A program made the position numbers and the translations under genes. The notes under the pieces are model-generated. The model was not told the DNA's origin. It made no database searches and was given only the letters and a program-made list of their open reading frames with translations. Of a stretch of 27,629 bases of DNA, positions 5,462 through 25,441 are shown piece after piece. Origin of the DNA: a virus; IMG/VR virus record IMGVR_UViG_3300017767_000096, positions 1 to 27,629 of that record; one strand, given 5' to 3'. Numbering within the stretch: the stretch's first letter is position 1; every line of letters begins with the position of its first letter.

Positions 5462-5884
5462 ATGTCTGATAAGTATGAAAATCTCGACGAAACATTTAAC
5501 GTCGAATCGGTTGAGGTAGAGGTACAAAAGGTTGATACAAACACTAAGATTAATAAGATAAAGTCGGGTCAAGAGGACATCAGAAGAGATTATGAATATA
5601 CCAGGGGTAATCTCTATTCAATCATTGAGAAAGGACAGGAAGCCATCGATGGTATCCTTGAACTAGCTCAAGAAAGTGAGATGCCAAGAGCTTACGAAGT
5701 CGCTGGTCAGTTAATCAAAAATGTTGCTGATGCGACTGATAAACTTCTAACATTGCAACAGAAACTCAAGGATGTAGAAGAAGAGAAAGATACCAAAGGT
5801 CCAACCACTGTCAACAATGCACTTTTTGTTGGTTCAACAGCTGAGCTTCAGAAATTATTAAAGAAAGGCAATAATGATAAATAG
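5462..5884 (+). CDS. 16: Terminase small subunit gp16
   Basis: T4 gp16-type small terminase, which recognises phage DNA and stimulates the ATPase of gp17 during headful packaging. It has 140 residues against 164 in T4. The body is a helical, heptad-patterned oligomerisation region (RRDYEYTRGNLYSIIEKGQEAIDGILELAQESEMPRAYEV, then VADATDKLLTLQQKLKDVEEE), and the C-terminus contains NNALFVGSTAELQKLLK, a segment typical of T4-like small terminases. The N-terminal DNA-binding part is short. A GAGG that overlaps the gp15 stop (TGAGGTTAATTTATG) serves as the ribosome binding site; almost the same junction precedes gene 17. Confidence 0.88.
   Translation: MSDKYENLDETFNVESVEVEVQKVDTNTKINKIKSGQEDIRRDYEYTRGNLYSIIEKGQEAIDGILELAQESEMPRAYEVAGQLIKNVADATDKLLTLQQKLKDVEEEKDTKGPTTVNNALFVGSTAELQKLLKKGNNDK
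5876..5883 (+). promoter_or_regulatory. Late promoter element overlapping the gp16 stop
   Basis: GATAAATA, one mismatch from T4 TATAAATA, overlaps the last codons of gene 16. Its last two bases are the first two of a perfect 10-bp inverted repeat (5882-5920). By T4 spacing transcription would start near 5889, inside the left arm. Confidence 0.65.
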
Positions 5885-5920
5885 TAAGAATGGGAGAGAA
5901 ATCCCAAAGTATTCTTACTA
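5882..5920 (+). promoter_or_regulatory. Hairpin at the 5' end of the fibre-like gene
   Basis: TAGTAAGAAT (5882-5891) is perfectly complementary to ATTCTTACTA (5911-5920). Inside it, GGGA (5892-5895) pairs with TCCC (5902-5905), leaving loop GAGAAA and a 5-base bulge. No T-run follows, so it is not a standard intrinsic terminator. The first ATG of the downstream frame (5890) is buried in the stem. Confidence 0.75.
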
Positions 5921-13186: not shown

Positions 13187-13194
13187 CCTAAATA
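13187..13194 (+). promoter_or_regulatory. Late promoter element upstream of gene 18
   Basis: CCTAAATA with a T-rich tract just downstream (CTAAATATTTTTTAG, which could form a weak 5-bp stem). The predicted transcription start is near 13200, giving a leader of about 32 bases that contains a strong AAGGAG (13221-13226), five bases before the gene 18 ATG. The 82-base gap 13150-13231 holds this promoter and no gene. Confidence 0.6.
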
Positions 13195-13231: not shown

Positions 13232-15418
13232 ATGGCTACTCCTCAATTATCTCCAGGCATTCTTGTCAGAGAGATTGACTTAACAGTGGGAAGAGTTGAC
13301 AATGTTGTAAACAATATTGGTGCTATCGCTGGTCCCTTCCAACTCGGTCCTGTAGACGAACCAATTGAGGTTGTTAATCAGGCCCAACTTCTAGAATCAT
13401 TCGGATCACCACTGTCAACTGATAGACAGTATGAGTATTGGATGACAGCTTCTTCATATCTTTCATATGGTGGAGTCCTGAAAGTAATAAGAACAGATGG
13501 AACTACGTTAGTCAATGCCAATGCTGGTGTTGGACTGGGAACAGACTCTGATCTTAAGATCAAAAATACGGATGACTACGAAGAGAATTTCAGTACCTCA
13601 TCTGATTTTACCTGGGCGGCTAAGAACCCTGGTCAATGGGGTAATGGACTAAAAGTCTGTTTCATTGACAATCAAGCTGATCAGACACTGGGTCTTACCA
13701 CAACAGGAGTCGGTCCTACAGACAATCTCAAAGTTATTGTTGGTACAGCTGTCACAGCTGCGGTTACTGGAACTATTGCTGGAGCTGGCACAACTAGTGA
13801 TTTTACTGGATATGTTGAAGGTATTGTTACAGGTATTACTACCGCTGTTGGAACCTCACAATCTATTGATGTTAAAATTCTCAAGAGAGTTTCTTCAACT
13901 GGAACAGTAACTAATATTGATTATAGTAAGGGTAATACACTCTCATCATTTGCCGCTAGTGGCACATTGAATTTCAAGAATTCAGCTGGTGTATCAACTG
14001 GATACTCTATTTCACCATCGACCGCGGTTGATTGGTATGATCAACAAACCCTTGGACTAAACACTCCAATTTTTTGGAATACAATTGCTGGCAAACCAGT
14101 TGATTCTAATTTCTCAGATTCAAGAAGTGGTGGAAATGACTCACTTCACATTGTAGTTGTTGATGATAGCGGTTCCGTAACTGGTATTCAAGGTAATATC
14201 CTTGAGAAACATACCTTCCTTTCTAAGGCTAAGGATGCCACCGCTGATGGTGAAGCACCCACTAAGACATATTATAAGGACTATCTCACCAATGGTTCTA
14301 ATTATATCTTTGCTGGATATAGTCCATCAAATGCAGCTGACGCATTCTGGGGAACATCACCAGCTCCAGGTGGATTTAGTTCCAATACCGTACCTAATAC
14401 CGTTGGTGCAGGTCAATGGGGTCAAGACGCACAAGGTGTTGTCTTCTCAGCCATTGGTAATAAGTCCTATGCACTTTCTGGTGGTGTTGACTATTCAACA
14501 TCTGGTGGACATGCAGCTACTTTGGGAGGTCTTCAAACTTCATATCAAATCTTTGCTAATGACGCAGATGTTGAGGTTAACTTCCTTCTGATGGGTCCTG
14601 GTTTAGGTGACAAACTCCTCTCACAAGCTAAGGCTAATCAATTGATTGCAATAGCTGAAGCTAGAAAGGATTGTATGGCTGTTATCTCTCCACATAGAAG
14701 TGATGTTATTAATAGTTCAACTGATGAAGTTAAACTCAGTAATATCTTGAATTATTATTCTCCTCTGAGTTCTTCTTCTTACGCAGTATTTGATACTGGT
14801 TGGAAGTATGTTTATGATCGTTTCAATAACTCTTTTGTTTATGTTCCTTGTAATGGAGACATTGCTGGAACAATGGTCAGAACTGAAATTGAATCTTTCC
14901 CTTGGTTCTCTCCAGCTGGAGCTCAAAGAGGTACAATCAACGACGCTATCAAACTGGCTTACAACCCAAGCAAATCACATAGAGATCAACTCTATGGATC
15001 AAGAATCAATCCTATCATCAACAAGAAAGGATTGGGTATCATTCTATTTGGTGACAAAACGGCTCTTGGATACTCTTCCGCGTTTGATAGAATCAACGTA
15101 AGAAGACTATTTCTTACAGTTGAACAAGCTATTGAATCAGCCGCTGACGCTCAACTGTTTGAGCTTAACGACTCAACAACAAGAGCCAACTTCGTTAACG
15201 CTATTGAACCTTTTCTCCGTGATGTTCAGGCTAAGAGAGGAATTTTTGACTTCGTTGTGAAGTGTGATGACACAAATAACACTCCCGATATTATTGATAA
15301 CAATGAATTTAGAGCAGACATTTTCCTGAAACCTACAAAATCAATTAACTATGTCACACTCACTTTTGTTGCCACCAGATCTGGTGTTGACTTCAGTGAA
15401 GTTGTTGGTACTGTTTGA
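13232..15418 (+). CDS. 18: Tail sheath protein gp18
   Basis: Contractile tail sheath subunit of the T4 gp18 family, 728 residues (T4: 659). The N-terminus (LSPGILVREIDLTVGRVDNVVNNIGAIAGPFQLGPVDEP, then LLESFGSP) is the conserved sheath opening. The C-terminal third (FPWFSPAGAQRGTINDAIKLAYNPSKSHRDQLYGSRINPI, GDKTALGYSSAFDRINVRRL, VEQAIESAADAQLFELND) is the conserved domain that forms the inner sheath wall. The middle (about 110-380) is Gly/Thr-rich, variable and expected to face outward. A strong AAGGAG lies five bases before the start, fitting the high copy number of sheath (about 138 per T4 tail). It is followed directly by the tube gene, as in T4. Confidence 0.97.
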   Translation: MATPQLSPGILVREIDLTVGRVDNVVNNIGAIAGPFQLGPVDEPIEVVNQAQLLESFGSPLSTDRQYEYWMTASSYLSYGGVLKVIRTDGTTLVNANAGVGLGTDSDLKIKNTDDYEENFSTSSDFTWAAKNPGQWGNGLKVCFIDNQADQTLGLTTTGVGPTDNLKVIVGTAVTAAVTGTIAGAGTTSDFTGYVEGIVTGITTAVGTSQSIDVKILKRVSSTGTVTNIDYSKGNTLSSFAASGTLNFKNSAGVSTGYSISPSTAVDWYDQQTLGLNTPIFWNTIAGKPVDSNFSDSRSGGNDSLHIVVVDDSGSVTGIQGNILEKHTFLSKAKDATADGEAPTKTYYKDYLTNGSNYIFAGYSPSNAADAFWGTSPAPGGFSSNTVPNTVGAGQWGQDAQGVVFSAIGNKSYALSGGVDYSTSGGHAATLGGLQTSYQIFANDADVEVNFLLMGPGLGDKLLSQAKANQLIAIAEARKDCMAVISPHRSDVINSSTDEVKLSNILNYYSPLSSSSYAVFDTGWKYVYDRFNNSFVYVPCNGDIAGTMVRTEIESFPWFSPAGAQRGTINDAIKLAYNPSKSHRDQLYGSRINPIINKKGLGIILFGDKTALGYSSAFDRINVRRLFLTVEQAIESAADAQLFELNDSTTRANFVNAIEPFLRDVQAKRGIFDFVVKCDDTNNTPDIIDNNEFRADIFLKPTKSINYVTLTFVATRSGVDFSEVVGTV

Positions 15419-15455: not shown

Positions 15456-16103
15456 ATGGCTACTAAGACATTATCTCAATTCAAATCAACCCTGGCGGGC
15501 GGGGGTGCCCGCCCCAATCTGTTTGAGGTATCTATTCCCTCATTCCCAGGTGCTGTTGACAGTAAAACTTGGGTAGCAGATTATCAGAACACTTTCAAGT
15601 TTCTGTGTAAAGCAGCTCAACTACCTGCTTCATCTGTGTCTCCTGTTAGTGTTCCTTTTAGAGGTAGAACTCTGAAAGTCGCTGGTGACAGAACATTCGC
15701 TGAATGGACAATCACTGTCATCAACGATGAGGATTTCACTATCAGAACAGCTTTCGAGAAATGGGCTGATAAGTTGTCCAACTTGCATGATGCAACTGGC
15801 GTTACTAACCCAACTTCGTACATGACCAATGCTTTCGTTAAGCAACTTGGTCGTGGTAAGAAAGCTTTCTCAGAAAAGAATGCTGGCAATGTAACTTCAG
15901 TTCTGAGAACCTATAAGTTCTATGACATTTGGCCTTCTGAGATCTCAGCTATCGAACTTAGTTATGATAACGCTGATACTGTTGAAGAATTCTCTGTAAC
16001 TTTCCAAGTTCAGTACTTCACTGTTGGTGAGACGGATGACTCAGCTGATGGTCAATATGATGAGACAGTTGATACAGAGACCGCAGCTACTCTTGAAGAC
16101 TGA
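15456..16103 (+). CDS. 19: Tail tube protein gp19
   Basis: Tail tube subunit of the T4 gp19 family, 215 residues (T4: 163). Recognisable stretches are GGGARPNLFEVSIPSFPG near the N-terminus, FLCKAAQLPASSVSPVSVPFRGR, TFAEWTITVINDEDFTIR, YKFYDIWPSEISAIELSYD and EEFSVTFQVQYF. The C-terminal ~20 residues are acidic and probably a flexible tail. Shine-Dalgarno AAGGAG (15440-15445) precedes the start by ten bases. I see no TAAATA element before it, so it is probably transcribed together with gene 18. Codons 13-20 (LAGGGARP) are written almost wholly in G and C, quite unlike the rest of the gene, and form a strong hairpin. Confidence 0.96.
   Translation: MATKTLSQFKSTLAGGGARPNLFEVSIPSFPGAVDSKTWVADYQNTFKFLCKAAQLPASSVSPVSVPFRGRTLKVAGDRTFAEWTITVINDEDFTIRTAFEKWADKLSNLHDATGVTNPTSYMTNAFVKQLGRGKKAFSEKNAGNVTSVLRTYKFYDIWPSEISAIELSYDNADTVEEFSVTFQVQYFTVGETDDSADGQYDETVDTETAATLED
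15494..15513 (+). other. GC-only hairpin in the first codons of gene 19
   Basis: GGCGGGC (15494-15500) pairs with GCCCGCC (15507-15513) around loop GGGGGT. From 15494 to 15515, 21 of 22 bases are G or C, while the surrounding DNA is AT-rich. The codons gcg-ggc-ggg-ggt-gcc-cgc-ccc contrast with the GGT, GGA, GCT, AGA and CCA used elsewhere in the window. Confidence 0.85.
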
Positions 16104-16114
16104 TATAATCAAGA

Positions 16115-16122
16115 TATAAATA
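16115..16122 (+). promoter_or_regulatory. Late promoter (exact TATAAATA) before gene 20
   Basis: A perfect match to the T4 late promoter core, 31 bases before the gene 20 start. Its last six bases form the start of a 14-bp inverted repeat. By T4 spacing transcription starts near 16128, close to the tip of the hairpin. Confidence 0.8.
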
Positions 16123-16146
16123 CTAGGAGTCCACTCCTAGTATTTA
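16117..16146 (+). promoter_or_regulatory. Perfect 14-bp hairpin between genes 19 and 20
   Basis: TAAATACTAGGAGT (16117-16130) and ACTCCTAGTATTTA (16133-16146) are perfectly complementary; sterically the loop would be TCCA with 13 pairs. The right arm ends six bases before the gene 20 ATG and no T-run follows. The left arm contains AGGAG (16125-16129), which would be paired in RNA coming from gene 19. Confidence 0.85.
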
Positions 16147-16152
16147 CTTGAA

Positions 16153-17811
16153 ATGGCGAGATTATTTGGTTTCTCAATTGAAAATGGCGAAAAGACCCCA
16201 GCTGGATTGGTGTCTCCAGTACCACCGTCTAACAACGATGGTTCGGAACACTATGTCTCGTCGGGGTTTTATGGTTCGTATGTAGATATTGAAGGAGTAT
16301 ATAAAAACGAGAACGACCTCATTCGTAGATATCGTTCAATGGCACTCTACCCTGAGTGTGACGGTGCGATCGAAGATATTGTAAACGAAGCTATTGTTTC
16401 TGATACTAATGATAGCCCCATATCTATTGATCTTCAAAATCTCAATGCCAGTGATGGTATTAAAAAAATTGTAAGAGAAGAGTTTAAATATATTCTTGAA
16501 CTTCTTGATTTTGACAAGAAGGCTCATGAAATTTTCCGAAATTGGTATATTGATGGGAGACTTTATTATAATAAAGTTATTGATCAAAAGAAACCAGAAA
16601 ATGGTATTCAAGAACTAAGATATATCGATTCGTCTAAGATGCGATATGTTCGTCAAATAAAGAAATCCCCAAAGGATGCACTCAGTAATCTTGAAAGAGT
16701 CGCTGGCGGAGGTAGAGATAATCCACAAAATTATAATTTTCCAGAGTTAGAAGAGTATTTTATCTATACTCCTGGTAATTCACAATCGGGTGCTATTGCA
16801 AATTCCTTTACTGGTGGTAGTAGTAAAGGAATCAAAATGACTCGCGATTCTGTCACCTATTGTACTTCTGGTCTAGTAGATAGAAATAAGGGAACAACAC
16901 TTTCTTGGTTACACAAATCAATTAAACCTCTCAATCAATTGATGATGATTGAGGATGCTTTAGTCATCTATAGACTTTCAAGAGCACCAGAACGTAGAAT
17001 CTTTTACATTGACGTTGGTAATCTTCCTAAAGTTAAGGCAGAACAATATCTTCGTGATGTTATGATGCGTTACAGAAATAAATTAGTCTATGATGCAAAT
17101 ACAGGTGAGATTCGTGATGATAAAAAACACATGTCCATGATGGAAGACTTCTGGCTTCCTAGACGTGAAGGTGGTAGAGGAACTGAAATTTCTACACTTC
17201 CTGGTGGTCAGAACCTTGGTGAAATTACTGATATTAACTACTTTCAGAAAAAACTTTATCGTGCATTGAATGTTCCTGAAACTAGACTTCAAGGAGACAG
17301 TGGTTTTTCGTTAGGTCGTTCTTCTGAAATCTTAAGAGATGAAATCAAGTTTTCCAAGTTTGTTGGAAGAATGAGAAAAAGATTCTCTTCTATGTTTAAT
17401 GATATGTTGAAGACTCAACTTCTTCTTAAAAACGTAGTCACTCCTCAAGATTGGGAGTACATGTCTGACCACATTCAGTATGACTTCCTATATGATAATC
17501 ACTTCGCTGAACTGAAAGACTCTGAACTTCTTGAGAGTAGAATTAACCAAGCAACTCTGGTTGAACCATTCATTGGTAAGTATTATTCACAAGATTATGT
17601 CAGAAGAAATGTTCTCAGACAGACTGATGCTGAAATCAAGGAACAGGATCAACTGATTAAAGAGGAAATCAAGGATGGTAAGATTCCTGATCCTGCCGAA
17701 GTTCAGGATATGGAGATGGGTCAAATGGGTGGAGCTCCAAATGCAATTCAATCTCCCCCAGTTCCTGCAGAACCAGAACCTGACGAAACTCCCAAGGGTG
17801 GTGATATCTAA
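16153..17811 (+). CDS. 20: Portal vertex protein gp20
   Basis: Dodecameric portal of the T4 gp20 family, 552 residues (T4: 524). It forms the DNA channel at the unique vertex, initiates prohead assembly and docks the terminase. Conserved stretches include YRSMALYPECDGAIEDIVNEAIV, RNWYIDGRLYYNKVID, LRYIDSSKMRYVRQI, LNQLMMIEDALVIYRLSRAPERRIFYIDVGNLPK, FWLPRREGGRGTEISTLPGG and FSKFVGRMRKRFSSMF. The C-terminal ~35 residues are acidic and proline-rich. The start lies six bases after a 14-bp hairpin that overlaps an exact late promoter; no Shine-Dalgarno sequence is visible. It begins the prohead block 20-67-21-22-23. Confidence 0.97.
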   Translation: MARLFGFSIENGEKTPAGLVSPVPPSNNDGSEHYVSSGFYGSYVDIEGVYKNENDLIRRYRSMALYPECDGAIEDIVNEAIVSDTNDSPISIDLQNLNASDGIKKIVREEFKYILELLDFDKKAHEIFRNWYIDGRLYYNKVIDQKKPENGIQELRYIDSSKMRYVRQIKKSPKDALSNLERVAGGGRDNPQNYNFPELEEYFIYTPGNSQSGAIANSFTGGSSKGIKMTRDSVTYCTSGLVDRNKGTTLSWLHKSIKPLNQLMMIEDALVIYRLSRAPERRIFYIDVGNLPKVKAEQYLRDVMMRYRNKLVYDANTGEIRDDKKHMSMMEDFWLPRREGGRGTEISTLPGGQNLGEITDINYFQKKLYRALNVPETRLQGDSGFSLGRSSEILRDEIKFSKFVGRMRKRFSSMFNDMLKTQLLLKNVVTPQDWEYMSDHIQYDFLYDNHFAELKDSELLESRINQATLVEPFIGKYYSQDYVRRNVLRQTDAEIKEQDQLIKEEIKDGKIPDPAEVQDMEMGQMGGAPNAIQSPPVPAEPEPDETPKGGDI

Positions 17812-18998: not shown

Positions 18999-19017
18999 GT
19001 GCTTAAAAATACTAATT

Positions 19018-19025
19018 TATAAATA
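19018..19025 (+). promoter_or_regulatory. Late promoter (exact TATAAATA) before gene 22
   Basis: An exact T4 late core 38 bases before the gene 22 ATG. Predicted transcription start is near 19031, so the RNA would begin with a small hairpin (19032-19049) followed at once by a Shine-Dalgarno GGAG (19050-19053). It is the nearest recognisable late promoter upstream of gene 23. Confidence 0.8.
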
Positions 19026-19031
19026 AATATA

Positions 19032-19049
19032 GATTAAAATAGGTTAATC
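19032..19049 (+). promoter_or_regulatory. 5'-terminal leader hairpin of the gene 22 late transcript
   Basis: GATTAA (19032-19037) and TTAATC (19044-19049) flank loop AATAGG. The stem would sit at the extreme 5' end of RNA from the 19018 promoter and leave the ribosome binding site free. Such a 5' stem can protect mRNA from decay; this role is inferred. Confidence 0.5.
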
Positions 19050-21609: not shown

Positions 21610-21714
21610 ATGAGTGGATGTTGTGGGGCTGGATGTCCCACTTGTCCTTTCAGACCCCCATCTCGGGGGTCTTTTTTATGCTTACTGATAAATACTAAAA
21701 AAGAGTGCCGATAG
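21610..21714 (+). CDS. 34-residue CCGxGCxxCP micro-protein after gp23
   Basis: A short ORF whose ATG starts one base after the gp23 stop (TGATATG) and whose TAG ends immediately before the gp3 ATG. It begins MSGCCGAGCPTCPFRPP. The cysteine cluster C4-C5-G-A-G-C9-P-T-C12-P matches the CCGxGCxxCP pattern of DUF5522 and of 'oxidoreductase-like' N-terminal motifs, where the cysteines are presumed to bind metal. The exact fit between gp23 and gp3 and this non-random motif argue for a real gene. Against it, an intrinsic terminator (21652-21677) lies inside, so terminated transcripts lack its stop codon. It could be a true micro-protein, a leader peptide controlling read-through, or chance. Confidence 0.55.
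   Translation: MSGCCGAGCPTCPFRPPSRGSFLCLLINTKKECR
21652..21677 (+). terminator. Intrinsic terminator after gene 23
   Basis: AGACCCCC (21652-21659) pairs with GGGGGTCT (21665-21672) around loop ATCTC, followed by five more Ts (21673-21677). This is the only textbook rho-independent terminator in the window. It separates the very highly expressed capsid gene from gp3 and the recombination genes. Confidence 0.92.
21687..21694 (+). promoter_or_regulatory. Late promoter element before gene 3
   Basis: GATAAATA ten bases after the terminator and 20 bases before the gene 3 ATG. Predicted transcription start is near 21700. It would restart transcription of gp3-uvsY after termination behind gene 23. 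Confidence 0.7.
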
Positions 21715-22730: not shown

Positions 22731-22936
22731 TGGACGAAGAACAAAACTACGAAGAATACGATTACACATTGTATTTGAAAATCGAAGATATTCGATTGAT
22801 GTATCATTGTGTACAACAAACTATTAAATATTGGCCAGGTGCTCCAGCAAGACCACATGAAGAACAAGAACATATGTGGCACATGAGAGACCAGTTTCAG
22901 AGAATGATTTTGGATCATTCTTTCAATAACCTCTAA
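22730..22936 (+). CDS. Small acidic/aromatic phage protein between uvsY and uvsW
   Basis: A 68-residue ORF overlapping the uvsY stop by one base (TAATG). It starts with an acidic, tyrosine-rich segment (MDEEQNYEEYDYTLYLK) and continues as a probable helix pair containing His and Trp (YHCVQQTIKYWPGAPARPHEEQEHMWHMRDQFQRMI). T4 also has small ORFs (uvsY.-1, uvsY.-2) here, but I see no clear similarity to them. Coupling with uvsY suggests coordinated late expression, perhaps as a recombination accessory factor; function unknown. Confidence 0.75.
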   Translation: MDEEQNYEEYDYTLYLKIEDIRLMYHCVQQTIKYWPGAPARPHEEQEHMWHMRDQFQRMILDHSFNNL

Positions 22937-22942
22937 TAAATA
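22935..22942 (+). promoter_or_regulatory. Late promoter element before uvsW
   Basis: AATAAATA overlaps the upstream stop codon; its final A is the first base of a perfect 10-bp hairpin that ends one base before the uvsW ATG. Predicted transcription start is near 22948, so late RNA would begin at about AGGTGAA, which is also the best ribosome binding site. In T4 uvsW is a late gene, which fits. Confidence 0.7.
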
Positions 22943-22964
22943 CCTATAGGTGAAACCTATAGGT
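22942..22964 (+). promoter_or_regulatory. Perfect hairpin abutting the uvsW start codon
   Basis: ACCTATAGGT (22942-22951), GAA, ACCTATAGGT (22955-22964). Each decamer is itself a palindrome, so the two copies are both direct and inverted repeats. In read-through RNA they can form a 10-bp stem with loop GAA (8-9 pairs if sterically relaxed), hiding the AGGT of the left copy. Confidence 0.8.
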
Positions 22965-22965
22965 T

Positions 22966-24429
22966 ATGGCTGATTTGACCATAGAGAAGGTGAACGAAGT
23001 TTACCTTAAGGTCTCTACGGAACCACATATTGAATACGAACTAAGAGATAAATTTACTTTTGAAGTTCCAAATATGAAGTTTATGCCTCAGTATCGGAGG
23101 AGGCATTGGAACGGAGAAATTCATTTGTTCGATATGAGAACAAAGAGAATATATGTTGGTCTACTTGATAAAGTTATAGCATTCTGCGAAAACTCAGGAT
23201 ATAGTTTTGAATTTGTAGATAACAAGTTTTATGGACTTCCATTTGAGGTTAATGAATTTGTTTGCAAAGAAGGTGTGAAGGATTATATAAAATCTATTAC
23301 ACCAATCAAACCAAGAGATTATCAGATTGATGCAATCCATGATGCTCTCAAATATAATCGTAAGTTACTAATCAGTCCAACTGCATCAGGTAAGTCGTTC
23401 ATGATTTACTCTGTTGTAAGATTTCATGTTGGACTAAAAAGAAAAGTTCTACTTGTGGTTCCCACCACATCACTTGTGGAACAGATGTTTAAAGATTTCC
23501 AGGACTATGGATGGGATGCTGAAAATCACTGTCACAGGATCTATGCAGGTCGTGAGAGAGTCAATACTAACGAAGTGACCATTACCACCTGGCAGTCGGT
23601 TTATCAACTGGATAGATCTTTCTTTGAAGAGTATGATGTTATTATTGGTGATGAAGCTCATTTGTTCAAAAGTAAGTCTCTAGTAGGGATTATGGACAAG
23701 TGCCATCACGCTAAGTATAGATATGGGTTCACAGGTACTTTAGACGGCACACAGACCCATAAGTGGGTCTTAGAGGGACTGTTTGGTCCTTCATATAAGG
23801 TGACAAAGACTAAAAAACTAATTGATGAAGGATACCTAGCCAAACTTGATATTCAGTGTCTGGTCTTAAAACATCGTCCTCAAAAGTTTGATACATATGA
23901 AGATGAGATTAAGTATCTGATATCTCATGAGAATCGAAATAAGTTCATATCCAATTTGTCAGTTGATATAAAAGGTAACACTCTAGTTCTCTATACCAGA
24001 GTAGAGACTCATGGAGCGATACTTTATGATCTAATAAATAAAAAAGTATCAAGTGATAGAAAGGTTTTCTTCATTCATGGTGGTGTGGATGCAGAAGATC
24101 GTGAGCAAGTCAGAAAAATTACAGAGGAAGAGAAAGACGCTATCATTGTTGCATCCTTTGGAACTTTTAGCACAGGTATCAACATTAAGAACCTTCACAA
24201 TGTAATATTTGCCTCTCCATCAAAGTCTAGAATTCGTAATCTACAGTCTATTGGTAGAGTCCTTCGTAAAGGCAAAGATAAAGTAAAAGCTAAACTTTAT
24301 GATATTGCAGATGATGCAACTATGGGGTCAAGAAAAAATTACACTCTGAATCATTTTATTGAAAGAGTGAAAATATATGTTCAAGAACAATTCAATTATG
24401 AAATTATATCAATTAATTTAAAAGACTAG
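22966..24429 (+). CDS. uvsW: UvsW RNA-DNA/branched-DNA helicase
   Basis: Superfamily 2 helicase, 487 residues (T4 UvsW about 503). It unwinds R-loops and branched DNA, shutting off origin-dependent replication late in infection and promoting recombination-dependent replication. The N-terminal substrate-binding domain has FMPQYRRRHWNGEIHLFD. Helicase motifs: Q-like PRDYQIDAIHDAL, Walker A SPTASGKS (about 137-144), DEAH at 229-232 in IIGDEAHLF, motif III FTGTLDGT, and C-terminal motifs VASFGTFSTGINIKNLHNVIFASPSKS and QSIGRVLRKG. It starts one base after a hairpin that overlaps a late promoter, consistent with strictly late expression. Confidence 0.96.
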   Translation: MADLTIEKVNEVYLKVSTEPHIEYELRDKFTFEVPNMKFMPQYRRRHWNGEIHLFDMRTKRIYVGLLDKVIAFCENSGYSFEFVDNKFYGLPFEVNEFVCKEGVKDYIKSITPIKPRDYQIDAIHDALKYNRKLLISPTASGKSFMIYSVVRFHVGLKRKVLLVVPTTSLVEQMFKDFQDYGWDAENHCHRIYAGRERVNTNEVTITTWQSVYQLDRSFFEEYDVIIGDEAHLFKSKSLVGIMDKCHHAKYRYGFTGTLDGTQTHKWVLEGLFGPSYKVTKTKKLIDEGYLAKLDIQCLVLKHRPQKFDTYEDEIKYLISHENRNKFISNLSVDIKGNTLVLYTRVETHGAILYDLINKKVSSDRKVFFIHGGVDAEDREQVRKITEEEKDAIIVASFGTFSTGINIKNLHNVIFASPSKSRIRNLQSIGRVLRKGKDKVKAKLYDIADDATMGSRKNYTLNHFIERVKIYVQEQFNYEIISINLKD

Positions 24430-24934: not shown

Positions 24935-25441
24935 ATGGCTGTCAATCACAATTATGGAACTATGGCAAGACCTAAGAAATCTGAACATTATGTTAATAAC
25001 AAAGAGTTCTTAAACGCACTTGAGAACTACTTTGCAGAAGTAGAACGAGCAAAACTCAACGATCAACCAAAACCACAAATCCCAAGATATATTGGTGAGT
25101 GTTTTTTGAAGATTGCAAATCATTTATCATATAAACCCAATTTTGTGAACTATATGTTCAAAGATGATATGATTTGTGATGGCATTGAGAACTGTGTAAG
25201 ATATGTTCATAATTTCAATCCTGAGAAATCTAAGAACCCATTTGCTTACTTTACTCAAATCATCTATTATGCTTTCCTGAGACGCATCCAACAGGAAAAG
25301 AAACAACTGGAGATTAAGAACAAGATTCTAGAGAAGACCAACTTTGATGAGGTCTTTGATGCGAACGAGCTTGACAGTGGGAACTACTCCGAGTACAATT
25401 CTATCAAAGATGCTGTTCACACCAAACTTCGTTATCAATGA
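24935..25441 (+). CDS. 55: Late-transcription sigma factor gp55
   Basis: Highly reduced sigma-70-family factor that directs host RNA polymerase to late promoters, normally with sliding clamp gp45 and co-activator gp33. It has 168 residues (T4: 185). Family features are HYVNNKEFLNALENYF near the N-terminus (T4: YNYVNNKELLQAI), then MICDGIENCVRYVHNFNPEKSKNPFAYFTQIIYYAFLRRIQQEKKQ, the sigma region 2-like core (T4: [45 protein letters not shown]). Met10 (ATG 24962, MARPKKSEHYV) is an equally good start; neither has a strong Shine-Dalgarno sequence. Its stop overlaps the gp47 start (ATGA). It is expected to read the eleven late elements upstream. Confidence 0.93.
   Translation: MAVNHNYGTMARPKKSEHYVNNKEFLNALENYFAEVERAKLNDQPKPQIPRYIGECFLKIANHLSYKPNFVNYMFKDDMICDGIENCVRYVHNFNPEKSKNPFAYFTQIIYYAFLRRIQQEKKQLEIKNKILEKTNFDEVFDANELDSGNYSEYNSIKDAVHTKLRYQ

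Follow-up and report, generated by a model that had tools for sequence, protein, structure and literature searches.

The late promoter of the portal gene (gene 20) in a T4-like cyanophage shares six bases with a perfect 14-bp inverted repeat, and we hold with moderate confidence that the hairpin, which straddles the predicted start of late transcription, makes translation of the gene depend on initiation at its own promoter, as a cyanophage variant of the device described for T4 e, soc and I-TevI. The sequence analysed, hereafter the window, is the whole 27.6-kb virus record (27,629 nucleotides), which carries the virion gene block of such a phage. Sheath, tube, portal, uvsW and gp55 genes were identified through Pfam and PHROGs, and phages of Synechococcus and Prochlorococcus are the nearest annotated relatives.

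The relevant genes are all on the + strand: gene 18 (tail sheath, 13232..15418), with the promoter heptamer CTAAATA upstream at 13188; gene 19 (tail tube, 15456..16103; phrog_45, E 3e-60), whose stop codon is at 16101-16103; gene 20 (portal protein, 16153..17811; PF07230, E 3e-190; phrog_213); and the gene for the late sigma factor gp55 (24935..25441; phrog_234, E 2e-65). On reading the sequence, gene 19 was seen to have its own AAGGAG near its ATG, and no evident Shine-Dalgarno (SD) sequence was seen at gene 20.

The sequence TATAAATA (16115..16122, + strand) was taken as the late promoter of gene 20 because its heptamer, [AC]TAAATA, is conserved across portal leaders, and not because of motif counts in the window: TATAAATA was found 3 times versus 1.4 expected, which is weak evidence alone, and ATAAATA 10 times versus 6.8 expected, all 10 on the coding strand. 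Within the 90 nt that precede the portal ATG, an [AC]TAAATA heptamer occurred in 81/81 leaders examined (the window, locus L004 and 79 of the best 80 loci, the remaining one, L042, having been left out with 14 nt of upstream sequence only). In relatives, the promoter mostly adjoins the gene 19 stop codon, which often lies inside TGATAAATA or TAATAAATA. A T4-type late promoter is therefore found directly upstream of gene 20, and the gp55 gene is present in the same window. T4 itself has TATAAATA at gene 20, yet no start-straddling hairpin was found there. The T4 promoter-to-start spacing, which we presume to apply here, would place the late start of gene 20 near 16128 (about +/-2, + strand). 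A published study gives NATAAATA as the late motif of cyanomyoviruses (PMC2984593).

The inverted repeat is located between genes 19 and 20, and its hairpin starts 13 nt past the gene 19 stop codon. Direct reading and independent repeat finding both showed the left arm TAAATACTAGGAGT (16117..16130) and the right arm ACTCCTAGTATTTA (16133..16146) to be 100% complementary, and confirmed the overlap with the promoter (16117-16122) claimed in the initial annotation. Most of the left arm precedes the predicted late start; the right arm would be retained in the predicted late RNA. The two bases between the arms, CC (16131..16132), cannot close in RNA, so the RNA stem is 13 bp with the loop UCCA (16130-16133) and a predicted stability of about -14 kcal/mol. 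Perfect arms of at least 14 bp with a gap of 2-10 occurred once in the window; 200 dinucleotide shuffles gave 0.005 on average. RNA folding predicted that TCAAG (16109..16113) pairs with CTTGA (16147..16151), lengthening the stem to 18 bp in read-through RNA of the window. This 5-bp extension, which ends one base before the ATG, is also visible in two relatives (L007 and L008) and is absent in two others (L004 and L009). The ATG is outside the 14-bp stem, and no SD sequence lies within it. The window gave no Rfam match at gathering score.

Folding of the RNA reading through from gene 19 gave a z score of -3.55 and contained the hairpin, and RNA starting at 16128 showed no stable or unusual structure (z +1.07). 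The expectation that the hairpin forms only in RNA from gene 19 was thus borne out by prediction: with the start placed by T4 spacing, the 5' arm is upstream of the late start, so that late RNA cannot form the fold. Opening of the region from -18 to +6 at gene 20 was predicted to cost 4.4 kcal/mol in late RNA versus 18.8-19.9 kcal/mol in read-through RNA, and the late value barely shifted when the start was set anywhere from 5 to 8 nt past the heptamer.

These predictions are consistent with a mechanism in which RNA reading in from genes 18-19 would hold both arms and form the 13-bp stem, closing the leader up to the ATG, and gene 20 would be poorly translated from this abundant RNA. Polymerase programmed by gp55 would start at about 16128; its RNA would be missing the left arm and would not fold, and gene 20 would be translated. 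The phage requires very unequal quantities of tube and portal, the portal in 12 copies. Insulation of gene 20 from gene 18-19 read-through had been suggested beforehand, and shielding the low-copy portal from abundant tube and sheath RNA remains the most sensible reading of the purpose at gp20, one partly supported by the gene-specific enrichment (see below) and the opening costs, with which it fits.

The initial annotation had also pointed to AGGAG (16125-16129) in the left arm. Folding agreed that it is paired in read-through RNA; it is unlikely to be the relevant ribosome-binding site, because 23 nt separate it from the ATG, its place coincides with or precedes the predicted 5' end of late RNA, and it is not conserved, being missing from relatives whose arms are CTAGAAC or CTAGAC. 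In T4 genes 25 and 38 a hairpin between the SD and the AUG is described as activating translation through a split ribosome-binding site (PMC3014915). Gene 20 is similar in having the SD-like AGGAG 23 nt upstream of the ATG and a hairpin in the region, and differs in that AGGAG is inside the stem and would lie no further downstream than the 5' end of late RNA. A split-SD model was rejected for this AGGAG, which is paired in the left arm, with no unpaired SD upstream of the hairpin.

The closer parallel is with the T4 genes e, soc, 49 and I-TevI, and with Aeh1 mobE, in which, according to two reports, early or middle read-through RNA hides the translation start and late RNA does not (PMC3014915, PMC2988022). 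As described there, these genes and segB resemble gp20 in having a late promoter immediately upstream and a 5' arm that lies in or near the promoter and is missing from late RNA. In the e/soc/I-TevI group the hairpin likewise covers the translation start region of the longer RNA (same sources); in that group, in contrast to gp20, the helix takes up the SD and/or the AUG, and the RNA arriving from upstream is of the early or middle class. Gene 20 is a portal gene with late genes upstream, no evident SD and an ATG that abuts the stem, so the analogy appears partial. Since genes 18 and 19 are also late, the T4 early-versus-late logic would not be carried over unchanged. The psbA leader of S-PM2d contains a 36-bp inverted repeat for which the authors suggest light-related regulation and mRNA stability (PMC5931967); it is also a cyanophage 5' leader hairpin in a region with a gp55 site, and differs in belonging to a photosynthesis gene and in that no start-straddling layout is described in the available portion of that paper. 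In searches of an open-licence library we noticed no account of this arrangement for gp20 or uvsW of cyanophages, which is not to claim its absence from print.

The hairpin could in principle act on transcription, attenuating it or weakly terminating it in the gene 19-20 gap. Its stability and the very different amounts of tube and portal would suit this role, as would the boundary between gene 23 and gene 3, where hairpins upstream of the promoter were found in 31/41 leaders versus 8.5 expected. Like an intrinsic terminator it is a stable intergenic hairpin; unlike one it has no T-run on the coding strand, where the sequence continues CTTGAA. The terminator scan of the + strand listed sites inside genes 18 and 19, none in the gene 18-19 or 19-20 gaps, and it omitted the gene 20 hairpin yet listed a site after gene 23. 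With no G+C-rich hairpin plus T-run listed there on the + strand, identity with an intrinsic terminator was rejected, in agreement with the initial annotation, and attenuation is very unlikely. In the window, the gene 23 site is a terminator-like hairpin with a T-run (21652-21672, TTTTTA tail), followed by the gene 3 late promoter (whole region 21652-21694).

The layout was then surveyed in 252 stretches (1.67 Mb), which yielded 803 junctions with a heptamer and 536 after dereplication at 80% identity. Most loci were the best 80 per search; taking best-scoring loci makes the sample lean towards relatives of the window. A hairpin was called start-straddling when centred 6-15 nt after the heptamer, around the start expected from T4 spacing, and expected counts were obtained from shuffles with the promoter held fixed, related leaders being treated as independent. 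Start-straddling hairpins were found in 23/73 dereplicated gp20 leaders versus 3.2 expected, in 27/47 uvsW leaders versus 1.5 expected, and in 18/416 of the remaining junctions versus 11.4 expected. Clear enrichment was thus seen only at gp20 and uvsW among the junctions surveyed. The idea that late promoters generally carry hairpins was rejected, as gp18, gp19, gp22, gp3 and o17835 were at or near chance in this register. A smaller set, of annotated phages and the window, had 12/127 positive sites, centred at +9 to +15, versus 1.8 expected. Anchoring on the ATG singled out the same two genes (gp20, 23/70 versus 5.8; uvsW, 25/40 versus 2.4), with a milder excess at junctions without a heptamer (29/238 versus 17.2) and 10/118 versus 4.4 at unassigned promoter junctions.

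Hairpins wholly inside the late RNA, downstream of the start, were at or below chance. Hairpins upstream of the heptamer were common, many of them terminator-like, such as those after gene 23. At gp22, hairpins were centred on the promoter in 11/56 dereplicated leaders versus 1.9 expected; in the window (19016-19033) and in gp22 leaders of relatives the promoter heptamers are within an A+T palindrome (TTTATAAATAAATATAG-like).

Several single cases were also recorded. In the window (5877-5919), ATAAATA is followed by a AGTAAGAAT/ATTCTTACT stem whose left arm takes in the beginning of the ATG (5890) that opens a tail-fibre ORF of 1089 aa; a late transcript begun near 5889 would have almost no leader, and the fold had a z score of -3.0 (the RNA used for opening cost ended 20 nt after the ATG start, before the right arm). 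S-SRM01 (L097, 8600-8645) has a very long inverted repeat (fold z -8.4), its loop holding the late promoter and its right arm the ATG; it precedes a gene annotated as recombination endonuclease VII and resembles the leaders of T4 homing endonucleases. Strong start-straddling hairpins also precede small ORFs in L208 (4770) and L229 (2342), which look HNH-type by eye.

Opening costs were compared across leaders in sets filtered from 47 uvsW, 73 gp20, 72 o17835, 56 gp22, 41 gp3, 22 gp19 and 23 gp18 junctions, with controls limited to 40. Read-through RNA was predicted to cost over 5 kcal/mol more to open than late RNA in 25/40 uvsW leaders (6.2 once the sequence upstream was shuffled) and in 17/70 gp20 leaders (7.7 shuffled). 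The same held for 1/40 leaders of o17835, 0/40 of gp22, 1/17 of gp3 and 2/21 of gp19; gp18 reached 8/23 (3.8 shuffled) without an excess of start-straddling hairpins.

At uvsW in the window, a motif scan placed the late promoter heptamer at 22936..22942 (+ strand). The hairpin (22942..22964, + strand; arms 22942-22951 and 22955-22964) stands directly before the ATG at 22966, and an SD-like AGGTGA lies within its left arm and loop. Predicted opening of -18 to +6 costs 7.9 kcal/mol in late RNA and 17.9-18.0 in read-through RNA, the late value going from 8.8 to 7.2 when the start is varied from 5 to 8 nt past the heptamer. This element is closer to the T4 e/soc/I-TevI type than that of gp20 and, by analogy, appears to fit well the T4 layout in which read-through is silenced. 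In these cyanophages uvsW follows uvsY on the same strand, and the same layout would hold uvsY read-through silent until late transcription. T4 uvsW sits in a different context, behind segE. It is described as made from a late promoter, its helicase unwinding R-loops at origins (PMC3016281).

The same 30 bases of the hairpin were found in five IMG/VR contigs; four of these hardly differ from the window, and the fifth, L004, is clearly distinct in gene 19. The isolate Synechococcus phage RB11-B (host strain MW02) also carries the hairpin. Measured against the window, identity in L004 and L009 is about 73-75% in gene 19, 92.5-95% across the 40-nt leader and 88-89% over the opening 300 nt of gene 20. 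The divergence of gene 19, set against the conserved leader and gene 20 start, suggests that recombination may have occurred near this boundary; since the leader is conserved although gene 19 has diverged, the element belongs with gene 20. In four relatives (L004, L007, L008 and L009) the leader has diverged less than the coding DNA on its flanks.

This bears on whether the hairpin is instead a 3'-end element of the gene 18-19 mRNA, an exonuclease trimming stop or processing site that would stabilise the abundant sheath and tube message. Its position so close behind the gene 19 stop codon and its restriction to RNA from gene 19 agree with such a role. In L047 (1467; 14 pairs), L048 (1468), L071 (1468) and L078 (1145) the portal late promoter is in or next to the hairpin loop, an arrangement that a 3' function could share; with the promoter lying against the gene 19 stop codon in the majority of relatives, there is scarcely another place for the hairpin, which makes the register compatible with such a function. 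Conservation with gene 20 and not gene 19 in L004 and L009 speaks against it, as does the similar device at uvsW, whose upstream gene, uvsY, we take not to be a highly expressed structural gene. It would also leave the window's pairing up to the ATG unexplained, and we regard it as unlikely.

On a quick portal tree, the window belongs to a 22-row clade with 17 start-straddling hairpins, and 3 of the 5 rows scored as having none (L016, L022 and L029) keep mismatched or bulged versions. Elsewhere the arms are unrelated: CTGGG/CCCAG in S-SSM7 and L246, TCTAAG/CTTAGA in L069 and L072, and AAATAGAA/TTCTATTT in L198 and L199. At least 7 changes of hairpin label are forced by well-supported branches of this tree. 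Different arms in separate portal clades imply that the structure is kept or regained while the sequence is not.

A palindrome that is inherited in one clade without function, having arisen by chance or mutation, would account for the 46/73 portal leaders with no hairpin above threshold. It is the least probable explanation, given the rarity of such a perfect repeat in shuffled windows, its recurrence in several clades and at uvsW, and a leader that outconserves its coding flanks. The unrelated arms also make a fixed protein site unlikely, and most late promoters have no palindrome. A DNA-level element, binding a repressor, gp55 or a portal autoregulator or aiding promoter opening, is hence improbable, even though the arms are symmetric in DNA and the outer CTAG/CTAG is invariant in 15 distinct anchored arm pairs (the anchoring itself required CTAG).

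For covariation, MAFFT misaligned the arms, which were therefore anchored by a script that required CTAG at gp20; 31/115 gp20 and 38/120 uvsW junctions were anchored and the others left out. Pairing in the gp20 CTAG family was 0.800 versus 0.745 permuted (11/2000 as high), and double-change positions were no more frequent than under permutation (2 versus 2.1). At uvsW, pairing was 0.911 versus 0.853 (2/2000 as high) and double-change positions were 3 versus 1.32 (39/2000 as high). Formal covariation within the CTAG family thus appears weak, and with this modest gain in pairing it was set aside as decisive proof. The check proposed by the initial annotation thus came out mixed: from one lineage to another the two arms vary together, without a double-change excess within the CTAG family.

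T4-like phages, which are abundant in the sea, keep a 12-copy portal balanced against tube and sheath made from adjacent genes, and a hairpin that forms only in read-through RNA would be a simple way to achieve this balance. We tentatively propose that cyanophages may have repeatedly evolved start-straddling hairpins as translation insulators, for stoichiometry where the portal follows the tube and for timing where uvsW follows uvsY. If so, the T4 early/late switch would be extended to balancing structural proteins within late transcription, and a device of T4 lysozyme and homing-endonuclease genes would also guard core virion and recombination genes in cyanophages.
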